Source: Psychrosphaera saromensis
GTDB taxonomy: Bacteria > Pseudomonadota > Gammaproteobacteria > Enterobacterales > Alteromonadaceae
Direction of reading: 5' to 3'
Assembly: GCF_002954545.1 (NCBI RefSeq)
Contig: NZ_MSCH01000003.1
Coordinates: 868,001 to 932,000, forward strand
Length of the DNA stretch: 64,000 bases
The position numbers and the translations under genes were made by a program. Below are positions 6,459 through 16,501 of the stretch, in pieces. The notes under the pieces are model-generated. The model did not search any database and had not been told where the DNA came from. It saw only the letters and a list, made by a program, of their open reading frames with translations. The number at the start of each line of letters is the position of its first letter. The first letter of the stretch is position 1.

Positions 6459-7244
6459 TTAGTGCATTGATAATGCTTGGCTATGCTCAAATAACCATTT
6501 CTTACTTGAGTCACAATGGGGACAAAAGTCTTTATTAAGTTGCCAAAAATTAGCTGAATGGTTCATATGGGTTAAATGGCTCAATTCATGAATTAATACA
6601 CAATCTATTACCCAATCAGGTGCCCCCATTATCATCGGATTTATTCTGATCAATCCCGACGCATAACAACAACCCCAGCGGCGTTTATACAATTTAAATT
6701 GTAATTCTTTTGCTGTTAATTGCATCTGTGTTTGCAACTCTTGAAACCTTGGCGTGATGTACTCTTGTGCCTGTTGGCTATAAAACAGGATTAATTTATT
6801 TCGTATATATTGCGCTGGATTTTTAATGTTTTTAGGTTGAGTAATAACTAACTGTTTGTCATCTGTATCGAGTTTTATATTAAATCGAGAGCCGCTAACA
6901 ATAATTAAGGTTATCCATTGGCCAAGTAATAATATTTTGGAACCAGATTGATAGTTATTTTGATTTTGAGGACGCAACGTTTGTTGAGTTTGTTTTTCCA
7001 CAATCCAACTTTGTTTTTTTATTAAAAACGCTTCAATGTAAGTAAGTTCAGTCCAATAGGGCGCTTTGACTAAAACTTCATTATGCTTGATTTCAACACT
7101 CAACGAGCGTCGGCGTTTACTCAATTTCAGCTGATATTTTAGAGTGGTATTTTCGGTATGGAGATAAAGCTCAAAATGTCCTTCAACGGCTTGTTGCAAA
7201 GCAGTTGAAGGAGACTTAAGAGTACGTTTAAGTAAGTCTAACAA
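6459..7244 (-). CDS. YgjP-like M48-type metallopeptidase domain protein
   Basis: The protein (261 aa) belongs to the YgjP/DUF45 family of small zinc metallopeptidase-fold proteins. The catalytic motif is HELSHLTHMNHS, with the family sequence RWGCCYASGLIRINPMIMGAPDWVIDCVLIHEL before it, at about residues 190-230. The C-terminus has CPHCDSSKKWL. It begins with TTG at 7244, 3 bp after the dsbA stop, so it is probably translated from the dsbA message; no ATG occurs early in the frame. The cellular role of the family is not settled. Confidence 0.85.
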   Translation of the reverse strand: MLDLLKRTLKSPSTALQQAVEGHFELYLHTENTTLKYQLKLSKRRRSLSVEIKHNEVLVKAPYWTELTYIEAFLIKKQSWIVEKQTQQTLRPQNQNNYQSGSKILLLGQWITLIIVSGSRFNIKLDTDDKQLVITQPKNIKNPAQYIRNKLILFYSQQAQEYITPRFQELQTQMQLTAKELQFKLYKRRWGCCYASGLIRINPMIMGAPDWVIDCVLIHELSHLTHMNHSANFWQLNKDFCPHCDSSKKWLFEHSQALSMH

Positions 7245-11639: not shown

Positions 11640-11681
11640 TCCTAGCAATTTACCGATTAGAAATTTACACTTGCAGCGAAT

Positions 11682-11785
11682 ACCAAGGAGTGTTCCTACT
11701 CAATGACGAGTAAGGACTGAGATGCATTAGCAAATCCTTAGAACCTGATCCGGCTTGTACCGGCGTAGGGATGGTGGCATAACCA
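11682..11785 (+). promoter_or_regulatory. TPP riboswitch (THI element)
   Basis: The conserved THI-box parts occur in order: an arm around GGAGTGTTCCTACTC, the CTGAGATG pyrimidine-sensor segment at about 11717-11724, and GAACCTGATCCGG...CCGGCGTAGGGA at about 11741-11772. These match the TPP-binding aptamer core. It lies about 95 nt upstream of the receptor start codon. The leader after the aptamer could form an imperfect stem (CTCTTTTGT with ACAAACAAGAG) that would cover the purine-rich start region, so control may act on translation; that part is inference. Confidence 0.93.
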
Positions 11786-11880
11786 ATAACGATTTGCTTA
11801 TGCATTATTACACACATCAACTTATCCTCGCTTACGACCGGCTCTTTTGTCTTTCAAATTAGAACAAACAAGAGAACCAA

Positions 11881-14061
11881 ATGAAAACCAGAATTGGAAT
11901 ATACGCACCATCTTTAATCGCTATTGGCCTTGCATTGTCGTTGCCAGTAATTGCCGATGAGACTCCTGATAAAGAAATAGAAACCATTGTCGTTAAAGGT
12001 GAGTTATTACCAACTACCGCGCAAAACGCAGCCAATTCAATTGATGTTCTTAATAAAGAAGCATTAGAAAAATCAGGCGCGGCTCATATTCAAGACGTAC
12101 TACAGCAAGTTGGCAATATTAACTATTCGTCAGGTAGCTCCAGAGCGCGTTTTTTCCAGATTCGTGGCATTGGGGAGCGTAGCCAGTTTGTTGATCCAGT
12201 TAACCCTTCAGTTGGCGTAGCGATTGACCGCATTGATTATTCTGAAATGGCGAATGCAGCTACTTTATTCGACATCGACCAGGTAGAAGTTTTTAAAGGC
12301 CCACAAGGCACTAATGTTGGCGCAAATGCGATGGCTGGATTCATTAATTTATCCAGTACAGAAACGGGGTCAGGCCAAGAAGGCAAAGTTAGAATGTCAT
12401 TAGGTAATTATGGCTTTCAGCAATTCGCTGCGGCTTATGGTGGCGATTTAGGTAATAAGGCTCAATATCGTGTATCAGTAAATAAAGTTGATGGTGATGG
12501 TTATATAGAAAATACTTACCTTGACCGTAAAGACACTAACGGCTTCGATGAACTGTCTATCAGAGCTATGTTTGATGTAGAAGTAAACCGTGATTGGTTG
12601 CTAAAAGCGGTTGTGCATAAGTTTGATATCGACAATGGTTATGACGCGTTCTCCTTAGATTTAAACCGTACTACTTTATCTGATGAACCAGGGTTTGATA
12701 AGCAAGACACAACAGCTATTGCCTTGACCAATACATATCAAGGTTTTACATTTGCAGATGTAAAATTGTTTTTAAGTACCTCTGATTCAGACTTAGATTA
12801 CGGTTTTGATGAAGATTGGAGTTATCAAGGCATAGCACCATACGATCCTATTAATGATCCAGATGGGGAGTATGCAGAGTACAGTTCCGTTGATCATTAT
12901 TTTAGGAAACGTGAAGCAAACCAAATTGATTTACGTCTATCAAGTAAAGATAAAGATTGGGTGTTAGGGCTATATACAAATAATAAAAATGTTGAATTAA
13001 CTCGACACTTTCTTGATTGGGATTTATGGGCTGACGCAACTTTTTCCAGTGATTATAAAGTTGTAAATACTGCATTGTACGGTGAAAAACGTTTTGCGTT
13101 ATCAAGCTCAATTACAGTTGCAGCAGGTTTACGTGTCGAAAACTATAAAGGTGATTACTCCGATAATAATGGAATCGTAGAGTCTACTAACGACAATATG
13201 TGGGGCGGACACTTTACGGCAAGCAAACAATACGACGACGAATTTCTAGCTTATTTTAGACTCAGTCGGGGCTTTAAAGCGGGTGGTGTTAACGGTGAAG
13301 CGTTAAGCAAGCTTAACGACAGTAACTCACAACAGTTTTACTTTGAATTAAGAGAACACGCTAACTTTAAACCGGAAACGTTAACTAACATTGAGCTTGG
13401 TTTAAAATATAGCTCAGCAAAAAATAAATTAAATGCAGTCGCTACTTTGTTTTATTCAACTCGTGACGACATGCAAATTAAACAATCGCTAACTAATCCT
13501 CCAGCTACGGGGAGTAATGATGGACCAACATTTATTGGTTATCTATTGAACGTGCCTGCTGGTTCAAATTATGGTGTAGAAACCACAGTTAATTATCAAT
13601 TAACCTCTGATGTGAAAGTATTTGCTGGTTTATCTTATCTTGAAACTGAAATTAGTAATATTGATCGCATTGAAAAACATCCAGATACAGGTGAAAAATA
13701 TCGTGTAATTATTAGCGTAAGAGAACAAGCTCATGCTCCTAAATATCAATTTAATTTAGGCACTAATTGGCAAATTACCGATAGTGTTTCATTAGATGTT
13801 TCCGTTACTGGTAAAGATGAATTCTTTTATTCATACAGCCATGATGAAAAGGCTGACGCTGTAGTATTAGCAAACGCGAGCTTAACTTATAAAGGCGATA
13901 TGTTCGACGTTACTTTGTGGGGACGTAATTTAACTGATGAAGAGTATGGCGTTAGAGGGTTCTACTTTGGTAACGACCCAAGAGACGGTTACACCCCAAA
14001 AAACTATGAACAGTTTGGCGAGCCGAGCGTTGTAGGAATAAAAGTCGATTACGTATTTTAA
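11881..14061 (+). CDS. TonB-dependent outer-membrane receptor, probably for thiamine
   Basis: This 726-aa precursor has a signal peptide (MKTRIGIYAPSLIAIGLALSLPVIA), a TonB-box-like IETIVVKG after the mature N-terminus, a plug domain (about residues 45-160, with QVEVFKGPQGTNVGANAMAG), and a beta-barrel ending in the aromatic YVF. It follows a TPP riboswitch and precedes PnuT and kinase genes, so the substrate is very likely thiamine or a related pyrimidine. It fits the thiamine-regulated receptors (Omr1 type) predicted in Shewanella and relatives. Sequence alone shows only a siderophore/cobalamin-type receptor; the substrate comes from context. Confidence 0.9.
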   Translation: MKTRIGIYAPSLIAIGLALSLPVIADETPDKEIETIVVKGELLPTTAQNAANSIDVLNKEALEKSGAAHIQDVLQQVGNINYSSGSSRARFFQIRGIGERSQFVDPVNPSVGVAIDRIDYSEMANAATLFDIDQVEVFKGPQGTNVGANAMAGFINLSSTETGSGQEGKVRMSLGNYGFQQFAAAYGGDLGNKAQYRVSVNKVDGDGYIENTYLDRKDTNGFDELSIRAMFDVEVNRDWLLKAVVHKFDIDNGYDAFSLDLNRTTLSDEPGFDKQDTTAIALTNTYQGFTFADVKLFLSTSDSDLDYGFDEDWSYQGIAPYDPINDPDGEYAEYSSVDHYFRKREANQIDLRLSSKDKDWVLGLYTNNKNVELTRHFLDWDLWADATFSSDYKVVNTALYGEKRFALSSSITVAAGLRVENYKGDYSDNNGIVESTNDNMWGGHFTASKQYDDEFLAYFRLSRGFKAGGVNGEALSKLNDSNSQQFYFELREHANFKPETLTNIELGLKYSSAKNKLNAVATLFYSTRDDMQIKQSLTNPPATGSNDGPTFIGYLLNVPAGSNYGVETTVNYQLTSDVKVFAGLSYLETEISNIDRIEKHPDTGEKYRVIISVREQAHAPKYQFNLGTNWQITDSVSLDVSVTGKDEFFYSYSHDEKADAVVLANASLTYKGDMFDVTLWGRNLTDEEYGVRGFYFGNDPRDGYTPKNYEQFGEPSVVGIKVDYVF

Positions 14062-14100
14062 TTAACCGCAAATATTAATATTTCTTTATAGCCCGAATAT

Positions 14101-14141
14101 AAGTGCATTGGTGAATATTGACTAGTATCAATGCACTTTTA
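14101..14141 (+). terminator. intercistronic stem-loop between receptor and YkoF-like gene
   Basis: A 10-bp perfect stem (AAGTGCATTG at 14101-14110 with CAATGCACTT at 14129-14138) with an 18-nt loop is followed by TTAATAA. The U tract is short, so it may be a leaky terminator or a message-stabilising hairpin rather than a full stop. Confidence 0.6.
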
Positions 14142-14160
14142 ATAAACAAGGAAAGCAATA

Positions 14161-14424
14161 ATGCAATTAAGCGTAGAAATAAGTAAATACCCTTTAGTGG
14201 AAGTTGATTTTGTAACCGCAATTCAAAATTTTATTGACCGTATTAATCAATACGACGATATAAGAGTCGTTACAAATGTAATGAGTACTCAGTTATTTGG
14301 TGATTACGATGTGGTTATGAATGCATTAACAACAGAATTAAAAACTAGCTTTGAAAAATATGGAACGACTGTCTTTGCCTGTAAATTTATACCAGGTAAT
14401 TTATATGAAAAATATGCAGACTAA
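14161..14424 (+). CDS. single-domain YkoF/MTH1187-like thiamine-binding protein
   Basis: This 87-aa protein has the size and pattern of one ferredoxin-like domain of the YkoF / MTH1187 superfamily: an opening strand MQLSVEISKYPL, a helix with FVTAIQNFIDRIN, then VVTNVMSTQLFGDYDVVMNALTTEL and a closing strand with FACKFIPGN. Bacillus YkoF has two such domains and binds thiamine; here there is one. The place between the thiamine receptor and PnuT in a TPP-controlled operon supports binding of thiamine or hydroxymethylpyrimidine. It has no signal peptide, so it would act in the cytoplasm. Confidence 0.75.
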   Translation: MQLSVEISKYPLVEVDFVTAIQNFIDRINQYDDIRVVTNVMSTQLFGDYDVVMNALTTELKTSFEKYGTTVFACKFIPGNLYEKYAD

Positions 14425-14451
14425 TATTGAGTAATACCCTTAAGGGAAAAT

Positions 14452-15069
14452 ATGATTGAGCAAGTATTAACTGGCTTTCAGGCAATGTCAGCATGGGAAT
14501 ATGTGGCGGTGCTGCTTGGATTGTCTTATGTGATTTTAGTGATGAAAGAAAGCTTGTGGTGTTGGCCAGCCGCTTTTGTTTCTACCTTAATTTACACTAT
14601 TTTATTCTGGCAAGGCGCCTTATTAATGGAGAGCTTTTTAAGTTTCTATTATTTACTAATGGCTATTTATGGCTGGTGGCAATGGAATAAACTAGATAAA
14701 ATTAGTAATGCCAAACTAGAAAAATCGATAGTGAGCTGGTCTACATCAAAGCATACAAAATGGATTGGTGCGGCTACAGTTACTTTCCTAATATTAGGTT
14801 ATGTTATGGATGAATACACCCATGCGAAAATTCCATATTTAGATGCATTTACCACGGTATTTGCCATTATGACAACCTATATGGTGACGCAAAAGGTATT
14901 GGAAAATTGGTTGTATTGGATAGTCATAGATATCGCCTCTATATTTCTATACTTAGAAATGGGCTATTACCCAACGGCAGTTTTATCTGTGTTGTACACA
15001 ATTCTGGCGTGGCAAGGTTTTCAAGTGTGGCGTAAACAATTACCAAACAAGCAATTTCAGCCTAATTAA
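14452..15069 (+). CDS. pnuT: PnuT-type thiamine transporter (PnuC family)
   Basis: This is a 205-aa integral membrane protein of the PnuC family with about seven hydrophobic segments. The family pattern WWQWNKL (in AIYGWWQWNKLD) and the WLYWIVIDIASIFLY segment near residues 160-175 are visible. PnuC members move nicotinamide riboside, while PnuT members move thiamine and rely on kinase trapping in the cell. The TPP riboswitch and a following kinase gene 1 bp away make thiamine the likely substrate. Confidence 0.9.
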   Translation: MIEQVLTGFQAMSAWEYVAVLLGLSYVILVMKESLWCWPAAFVSTLIYTILFWQGALLMESFLSFYYLLMAIYGWWQWNKLDKISNAKLEKSIVSWSTSKHTKWIGAATVTFLILGYVMDEYTHAKIPYLDAFTTVFAIMTTYMVTQKVLENWLYWIVIDIASIFLYLEMGYYPTAVLSVLYTILAWQGFQVWRKQLPNKQFQPN

Positions 15070-15070
15070 C

Positions 15071-15952
15071 ATGAAAAAGAATACGTCAGCTGACGACTTT
15101 TGGCTGCATAATTTACCAAGCTCTCATGCTGACTATTTATCCTATACCGAAATCGAGTTAGGCCGACATCCGTCGGCTTTTCTTACTTATCAAAACCATG
15201 AAAAATTTATAAAACAAGTTCCTGAGCATATTCAAAAGATCGAGTATTCGATACTGGCTTGGTTACATGAACTGCAATTAGCACCAAACGCAGTGAAAAA
15301 TGATAAAGGCATAAAACCTGTAATATCAACAAAGGCACCATATGAACTGCAAATCCCCAAACCCGATGTATCAACGTCAAGAACTGACTTACTGATCACC
15401 AGCAAATTAGACGGCATTCCATTAACAAAATTAAGTCTGGCATCTCGTTTTTCTTTGATATGTAAATCATTGGCATATCTACATCAATTGATTGAAGTAA
15501 CTCAATTACCGAGCATTATTGTACGCTCGCTAGATCATGAACTACCGATTAATAGTAATGATGTAGAGTCGTGTTATTTAGCGCAATTTAATCAAGCCAA
15601 AGCTAAAATAGATGAGAATCTATCTATATTGGGCTTGGTGCATGGAGATCTTTCCTCTGGGAATATTTTAGTCACAGATTCAACTATTGGTATTATTGAT
15701 TGGGAATATGCCAATGTCAGAGATTGTCGATGGGATTTAGCAACTGTTGCAGTTGAGTTTGAACTGAATTCAGGTGAATTTAATAAGTTATGTGATCTTT
15801 ATTTAAAGCAAAGGGGATTGCATGAGGATAGCTTTATTGATGTAGCAAAGAGTTGGGCTGTCGTTTATGCAGTAACCTGTTTATCGTGGGCTAAAAAAAA
15901 TAACCAAAAAACAAACAGGTATCTGCAATTTTTAGGACAGTTTGAAAATTAA
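15071..15952 (+). CDS. thiamine kinase-like phosphotransferase
   Basis: This 293-aa protein belongs to the choline kinase/aminoglycoside phosphotransferase fold. The catalytic loop is GLVHGDLSSGNILV (about residues 190-204) and the metal-binding motif is IGIIDWEYANVRDCRWDLA. It follows pnuT by 1 bp and is the last gene of the TPP-controlled operon, so it probably phosphorylates imported thiamine and traps it. Whether it makes TMP (ThiK type) or TPP cannot be told from the sequence. Its stop overlaps the end of the convergent HTH gene by 4 bp. Confidence 0.85.
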   Translation: MKKNTSADDFWLHNLPSSHADYLSYTEIELGRHPSAFLTYQNHEKFIKQVPEHIQKIEYSILAWLHELQLAPNAVKNDKGIKPVISTKAPYELQIPKPDVSTSRTDLLITSKLDGIPLTKLSLASRFSLICKSLAYLHQLIEVTQLPSIIVRSLDHELPINSNDVESCYLAQFNQAKAKIDENLSILGLVHGDLSSGNILVTDSTIGIIDWEYANVRDCRWDLATVAVEFELNSGEFNKLCDLYLKQRGLHEDSFIDVAKSWAVVYAVTCLSWAKKNNQKTNRYLQFLGQFEN

Positions 15953-16131
15953 AGACCGCCTAAACGTAATGCGATTTCTTTATATTTTTCAACGTCAGCT
16001 TTATCAAATAAAGGCTTTCCATCAGGATCTTTATCTGCTGCATTTAACAAATGTTCGCGCTCTAAACGGTTAACTCGAACGTCTTTCACACCTAAAAATT
16101 CAGCAACTTCATCAACGGTCATTAGTGACAT
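15949..16131 (-). CDS. small helix-turn-helix DNA-binding protein
   Basis: The 60-aa protein is almost wholly an excisionase/MerR-type winged HTH: MTVDEVAEFLGVKDVRVNRLEREHLL forms the HTH, and DPDGKPLFDKADVEKYKEIA is the wing and last helix. Despite the excisionase likeness there is no integrase near. It is convergent with the thiamine kinase-like gene and overlaps it by 4 bp. Its targets are unknown. Confidence 0.8.
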   Translation of the reverse strand: MSLMTVDEVAEFLGVKDVRVNRLEREHLLNAADKDPDGKPLFDKADVEKYKEIALRLGGL

Positions 16132-16426: not shown

Positions 16427-16501
16427 GCTCTCGTGGTGAAGTGGATCTCACGCGTCCCTCCGGAGGATGAGTCGCAGGTTCGATTCCTGCCGAGAGCGCC
16501 A
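16427..16501 (+). tRNA. tRNA-Arg (anticodon CCG)
   Basis: The sequence folds into a full cloverleaf of 75 nt: acceptor GCTCTCG with CGAGAGC, D stem GTGA with TCAC, anticodon stem CGTCC with GGATG around the loop CTCCGGA (anticodon CCG, reading CGG), T arm GCAGG-TTCGATT-CCTGC, and an encoded CCA end. It is a single tRNA with no neighbours in a cluster. Confidence 0.95.

Follow-up and report, generated by a model that had tools for sequence, protein, structure and literature searches.

A one-domain YkoF-like protein encoded beside PnuT in a thiamine pyrophosphate riboswitch operon of Psychrosphaera saromensis

Introduction

It is known from Bacteroides thetaiotaomicron that mutants deleted for the synthesis operon needed more thiamine when the outer-membrane receptor or the transporter PnuT was deleted as well, as given in the available part of that study (PMC5613172). 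A second paper, in its accessible text, cites the PnuT of Shewanella woodyi as transporting thiamine (PMC7749635). The role of YkoF is called unclear in the available portion of a further report (PMC5037267), and PMC9026889, as far as its text is available, has PnuT in its introduction and YkoF in its reference list. The present study deals with a stretch of 64,000 nucleotides from Psychrosphaera saromensis (contig NZ_MSCH01000003.1, positions 868,001 to 932,000), called the window below, and with an operon in it where both kinds of protein meet: behind a thiamine pyrophosphate (TPP) riboswitch, the gene of a one-domain YkoF-like protein of 87 amino acids (aa) directly precedes pnuT. The operon type and the superfamily are already known. 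In the literature searched on YkoF, PnuT, OMR1 and MTH1187, where no search paired both names and subscription literature lay largely outside, we met no fixed pairing of PnuT with a YkoF-like protein of one domain.

Results

The operon opens with a TPP riboswitch aptamer (RF00059) at 11676..11788, which cmscan scored at 67.6 bits against a gathering score of 54.3 (E 3.8e-11). Four genes follow on the same, forward strand: a TonB-dependent outer-membrane receptor of 726 aa, omr1/OMthi-like by position (11881..14061; open reading frame (ORF) with PF00593 at 2.6e-28 and PF07715 at 1.4e-14), the 87-aa single-domain YkoF-like protein with a predicted ferredoxin-like fold (14161..14424; ORF, Pfam, profile and model), a PnuT-type inner-membrane transporter of the PnuC family of 205 aa (14452..15069; NMN_transporter PF04973 at 1.4e-51, 175.3 bits with a cut-off of 27.3) and an APH-type kinase of 293 aa, probably a thiamine kinase (15071..15952; PF01636 at 3.2e-10, HGD....N and IDWE motifs by eye). 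The gaps between them are 99, 27 and 1 nt, and the ORF list holds no further gene in the operon. The first-pass annotation had described a thiamine riboswitch operon with import components and no ABC (ATP-binding cassette) partner, and this was borne out by ORFs, Rfam and Pfam, except that its start at 11682 lies 6 bases inside the aptamer.

The coupling of the ykoF-like and pnuT genes is conserved. Relatives were fetched by similarity to the 87-aa protein, and the best 80 of the 92 stretches encoding one were compared; these loci are not independent, many being from Pseudoalteromonas, Rheinheimera and Microbulbifer. A PnuT homologue was found directly 3' of the ykoF-like gene in 76 of the 80 loci and a receptor homologue 5' of it in 52, which makes PnuT and not the receptor the most constant neighbour. 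When the PnuT start was set heuristically at the ATG nearest the ykoF stop, the two frames overlapped or touched in 55 of the 76 loci (-4 in 23, -1 in 20, -8 in 11 and 0 in 1), and spacing was within 30 nt in 68, the window having 27 nt. The kinase was present in 72 of the 80 loci, 69 of them from the first search and three (L058, L105, L108) added by hidden Markov model; it was not found in L062, L092, L102, L107, L109, L110, L111 and L112, the contig of L062 ending in pnuT. An upstream TPP riboswitch was observed in 42 of the 80 loci, all of them within the 52 that carry the receptor. Of these 42, a motif gave 39, and a search of the remaining 41 loci by Rfam added three (L036, L080, L089); the contig of L081 starts at the receptor gene and its upstream region is missing.

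Genome samples drawn evenly gave the same picture. Among 274 genomes sampled over the class, 13 matched the small protein at E <=1e-3, and one of these was dropped (G362; 8.4e-4, residues 5-38 of a 330-aa frame). All 12 clear carriers, the window's own genome included and eight families represented, have PnuT (E <1e-36) at 100 bp or less on the same strand. PnuC-family matches at E <=1e-10 occur in 28 genomes of this sample, and 16 of them (best E 2.3e-28 to 1.6e-11) gave no counterpart of the small protein. A second ykoF-like copy was seen in G340, where it stands alone by eye, and in G386, where both copies are in one cassette. In the family, 187 of 196 genomes, again with the own genome included, have a homologue of the 87-aa protein, and this figure together with the 76 of 80 loci is more than chance would give. 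Among 59 genomes of the family, 41 had gene coordinates listed; PnuT lies within 400 bp of the ykoF-like gene in 39 of these and within 130 bp in 37. The two exceptions, G028 and G044, have the ykoF-like gene apart and a TPP-receptor-PnuT cassette elsewhere in the genome.

The small protein is, as judged from sequence profiles and a predicted structure, a single-domain member of the MTH1187/YkoF-like superfamily. Taken alone it scores below the family cut-offs, with PF07615 (Ykof) at E 0.002 and 19 bits against 21, PF01910 (Thiamine_BP) at E 0.027 and 14.9 bits against 24.9, and TIGR00106 (MTH1187 family) at 14.5 bits against 54.7, and a single-sequence search of PDB turned up nothing significant (best E 0.1). 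Two relatives do pass the PF07615 cut-off, that of G002 with 29 bits and that of G527 with 26 bits. An alignment of 40 sequences, the window's and 39 from the 80 loci, served as a profile: 34 of its members match PF01910 and 30 match PF07615 at E <=0.01, and the profile found Bacillus subtilis YkoF among PDB sequences (1s7h at 3.3e-7, 1s99/1sbr at 1.1e-6) as well as MJ1052 (2eky, 1.4e-5) and SP2199 (9.4e-5). Within YkoF, the first repeat was matched with an i-Evalue of 0.0076 and the second weakly (1.8). E values from hhalign were 1.7e-7 (MTH1187-type set) and 1.4e-7. The first-pass annotation had named a one-domain YkoF-like protein and proposed a profile search against YkoF and MTH1187; that search, together with the predicted fold, upholds the name and refutes non-membership in the superfamily. 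The protein is not YkoF proper, since it shows no internal duplication, and its PF07615 score stays under the gathering score; nor does it belong to TIGR00106. No signal peptide is visible by eye, and in the window's genome there is no PF01910 match at E 0.001 or better.

The AlphaFold2 model (pLDDT 87.1, pTM 0.78) has the order E-H-E-E-H-E with a short last helix. The 14 best rows of Foldseek are all single-domain proteins of the superfamily, MTH1187 and TM0486 included, and VIA-align gave Z 10.4 for TM0486 (1vk8) and 10.1 for SP2199 (2ibo), with unrelated folds at 8.2 or less. No YkoF entry is among the best 50 rows of either program. Invariant in the 40-sequence alignment are M1, E6, I7, S8, Y10, P11, L12, S42, G47, M53 and K75. 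The S8-x-Y10-P11-L12 motif, S42 and G47 align with SxYPM, ST and G of YkoF domain 1, where S8, Y10, P11, S42, T43 and G47 have counterparts; counterparts in the MTH1187-type set are E6, S8, P11, L12, M41, T43 and G47. These signature residues are largely retained in nine copies that lie away from PnuT. Binding of thiamine or of its hydroxymethylpyrimidine (HMP) moiety would be the most likely function of the 87-aa protein.

The two proteins of transport and trapping were known to the first-pass annotation as PnuT and a kinase. The name PnuT stands in so far as the protein belongs to the PnuC family (PF04973) and its operon opens with a TPP riboswitch, and transport of thiamine itself is what this arrangement suggests. 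It is the sole PF04973 match in the genome, and phmmer against PDB sequences gave nothing at E <=0.01. For the kinase the APH-type domain was confirmed, and phmmer against PDB sequences returned two choline-kinase-type chains (best E 0.00027). Its best NCBIfam match, TIGR02721 thiK, reaches 53.8 bits against a cut-off of 299.45; since this is below the ThiK cut-off, we infer rather than read off a thiamine kinase. The genome has one further TPP riboswitch, 5' of a gene recognised by eye as thiC. The organism thus probably also makes thiamine, and uptake would probably supplement synthesis and not replace it. The nearest named relatives are Psychrosphaera.

A tree was built from 61 PnuC-family proteins in selected rows, of which 42 were YkoF-linked, 9 had a TPP riboswitch without an adjacent YkoF-like gene and 10 were others. 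All 42 linked rows fall, with 7 unlinked ones, on one side of a 99/96 branch, and the 12 rows on the other side include no linked one. Since the label 'linked' has to change 6 times on this tree, the gene was probably lost or moved on several occasions. Genome G018 has a second PnuT (L209, G018:C28), which shares 54% identity with that of the window and has no ykoF-like gene or TPP motif in the fetched stretch.

A change of substrate in 22 receptor-less Pseudoalteromonas loci was considered and dropped. Six genomes were tested, five of the named Pseudoalteromonas loci and G018 with a like cassette, and in all six the one TPP riboswitch found among the matches listed lies beside thiC (by eye), with a window-related receptor gene within the same 3.1 kb. 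This receptor has 37-45% identity to the window's over the N-terminal part. As the receptor stands elsewhere with the thiC-side riboswitch, the operon looks split in these genomes.

Some loci have other company. In L038, L065 and L210 the ykoF-pnuT-kinase genes stand behind genes for an NTP transferase, an APH kinase, a GH109-like oxidoreductase and a SnoaL-like protein, assigned by Pfam in L038 (SnoaL-like below cut-off) and by eye in the other two. A methyltransferase gene lies within the cassette in L113 (3129-4303) and L123 (3826-5190), in L113 between two ykoF-like copies.

Outside the phylum the pair was met again. In the Bacteroidota loci L107 and L109 only the ykoF-like/pnuT pair is kept, with frames overlapping by 20 bp, and no TPP riboswitch, receptor or kinase homologue was found in the fetched stretches. 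Upstream of the pair, L107 has a gene for a monomeric isocitrate dehydrogenase (Pfam), and L109 has an ORF that resembles it (by eye). Three further Bacteroidota loci (L110-L112) are orphans, with a PF04973 match elsewhere in the genome. Among 72,556 plasmid records there was one match, on a Sulfurovum plasmid of the Campylobacterota (L233, NZ_CP087125.1; 38.8% identity, E 5e-11), in a cassette of TPP riboswitch, receptor, small protein, pnuC and a choline/ethanolamine-type kinase. On this plasmid the annotation breaks both receptor and pnuC into fragments, and another TPP riboswitch follows further 3', at 6955-7105. In one case the small protein is annotated as 'hypothetical protein' and its neighbour as 'nicotinamide riboside transporter PnuC'; some transporters of B1 may thus have been taken for transporters of NAD precursors.

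YkoF-type domains were also found with other transporters. In 299 genomes sampled over the phylum, PF07615 was matched in 16, of which seven have a two-domain YkoF (two stretches); the proteobacterial two-domain form has 202 aa. Three of the seven two-domain loci were examined and neighbours were resolved in two. One (L191) has YkoF beside an ABC permease and an NMT1/THI5-like binding protein, the other (L192) beside a protein of PF09819, which we take to be the Pfam family of YkoE. Together with the PnuT pair, these loci indicate that YkoF-type domains accompany energy-coupling factor (ECF), ABC and PnuT importers. Seven MTH1187-type single-domain proteins (L194-L200) were, by eye, in no thiamine operon. 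In genome G527, which has an orphan ykoF-like copy, a TPP riboswitch below threshold (52.3 bits against 54.3) was listed 5' of a sodium:solute symporter gene (L222, G527:C14:391524).

In the window a hairpin followed by TTTT lies between the receptor and ykoF-like genes (14101..14138, forward strand). The fold of 14085-14165 has -16.2 kcal/mol and z -1.93, with 11 of 200 shuffles as low. It could possibly be an attenuator or an mRNA end, and a terminator scan did not list it. Receptor/ykoF-like gaps were available in 53 cases including the window, and 18 of them (the window and 17 relatives) are at least 35 nt long; 16 of these 18 fold at z <=-2 (mean -3.3), the window's whole gap having z -1.64, and the hairpins are unlike in sequence between loci. 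Behind the operon, a 60-aa HTH_17 protein is encoded on the reverse strand at 15949-16131, convergent to the kinase end. A homologue of it was seen in 46 of the 80 loci, always on the opposite strand and about 1.7 kb behind the ykoF-like start. A tRNA follows in the window at 16427-16498, and a similar distance is found in many Pseudoalteromonas loci.

Discussion

The present study shows that a one-domain YkoF-like protein and PnuT are encoded side by side in many bacteria. The operon could describe a complete route. Thiamine, or a compound with its pyrimidine moiety, would cross the outer membrane through the TonB-dependent receptor and the inner membrane through PnuT. A PnuT reportedly works by facilitated diffusion, as is said of the work of Jaehme et al. 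in 2018, and import of this kind needs a sink or pull inside. The kinase would be the obvious sink, probably by phosphorylation of thiamine. The 87-aa protein could be playing a role between the two: on the cytoplasmic side, close to PnuT or in contact with it, it may bind the HMP moiety and hand it over to the kinase, and so act as acceptor for a transporter that is not itself energised. We give a probability of about one half to this reading of the protein as a cytoplasmic binder of thiamine or its HMP moiety that receives substrate at PnuT and delivers it to the kinase; its ligand, site of action and hand-over are what we infer.

Several observations weigh against this reading. Nine PnuC-family loci have a TPP riboswitch upstream on the same strand but lack a YkoF-like gene next to them, five among 12 examined (L156, L160, L162, L163, L164) and four more (L204, L206, L207, L208). 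The genomes of L204 and L206 carry a ykoF-like gene elsewhere, and the other seven gave no match; with seven of nine such genomes lacking any match, the small protein is not essential. Conversely, three of six tested genomes with a ykoF-like gene (G035, G527, G746) gave no PF04973 match. PnuT thus does not depend on the small protein, nor is the small protein confined to PnuT, and the idea of an obligate PnuT subunit was dropped in view of these PnuC-family riboswitch loci without the gene and of carriers in which no PnuC-family protein was found.

It could be possible that the small protein is a sensor and gate, which would dock on PnuT from the cytoplasm, either with or without bound ligand, and open or close it. 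GlnK, a PII-type protein, gates AmtB in this way. In favour of such a gate are PnuT as the most constant partner, frames that overlap or touch (55 of 76 loci, with heuristic starts) and a pair that persists in L107 and L109, where no receptor, kinase or TPP riboswitch was found in the fetched stretch. However, orphan copies occur in genomes with no PnuC-family protein found, PnuC-family loci occur without the small protein, and the two-domain YkoF with ECF or ABC neighbours in the two resolved loci argues against a surface specific for PnuT. We consider such a gate, the main rival reading, unlikely.

The operon might also salvage the pyrimidine half, so that the protein would serve HMP or breakdown products of thiamine and not intact thiamine. 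It has been published that YkoF contacts the HMP moiety only (PMC5627462, in its available text), ykoF is listed under B1/HMP transport in the accessible part of a marine paper (PMC10881298), and the orphan copy of G527 coexists with the sub-threshold riboswitch 5' of the symporter. On the other hand the kinase in 72 of the 80 loci fits a thiamine kinase, the operon of the window has no further gene, and Shewanella woodyi PnuT is cited for thiamine in the available text of PMC7749635. On balance we consider this reading unlikely. That the protein has lost ligand binding for another role, such as a PnuT chaperone, is very improbable: the window protein alone does fall below the family cut-offs, but the signature residues are kept across 40 sequences and largely in the nine copies not adjoining PnuT.

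If the acceptor reading is widened to all importers concerned, the YkoF-type domain may, quite tentatively, be a transporter-independent intracellular acceptor of thiamine or HMP that was recruited by three unrelated importers, the ECF, NMT1-type ABC and PnuT systems, and in the PnuT lineage became a dedicated docking partner, either gating the transporter or receiving substrate from it directly. With a docking partner of this kind, a passive facilitator would gain directionality while having no energy source itself. YkoF is not tied to a single mechanism of transport, given that its one-domain relatives stand next to PnuT and its two-domain forms next to ABC or ECF genes, and this shared occurrence points to a common cytoplasmic step in B1 uptake. 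As the pair recurs across many bacteria, the small protein is a testable partner of the transporter, and, consisting of one small soluble protein and one transporter, the pair should be easy to reconstitute.

Among known systems, B. subtilis YkoF (1s7h, 1s99, 1sbr; PF07615) is alike in the profile match, in the SxYP(L/M) and ST motifs and in being encoded with a thiamine importer under TPP control. It differs in having two tandem domains in a 200-aa chain and in standing with the ECF genes ykoEDC (PMC5037267, available text), whereas the window has one domain of 87 aa beside PnuT. The MTH1187-type proteins (MTH1187, TM0486, MJ1052, SP2199; PF01910, TIGR00106) share the single ferredoxin-like domain and are the best fold matches, but they have about 100 aa, and the seven proteobacterial examples are by eye in no thiamine operon. 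The PnuT of Shewanella woodyi is likewise a thiamine transporter of the PnuC family; transport was characterised there, according to the available part of PMC7749635. The Bacteroidetes OMthi-pnuT-tnr3 operon, as given in the accessible text of PMC5613172, likewise has a TPP riboswitch, a TonB receptor, PnuT and a phosphorylating enzyme. Compared with it, the operon of P. saromensis has a ykoF-like gene inserted, and a kinase classed by Pfam as APH-type where Bacteroides has tnr3.

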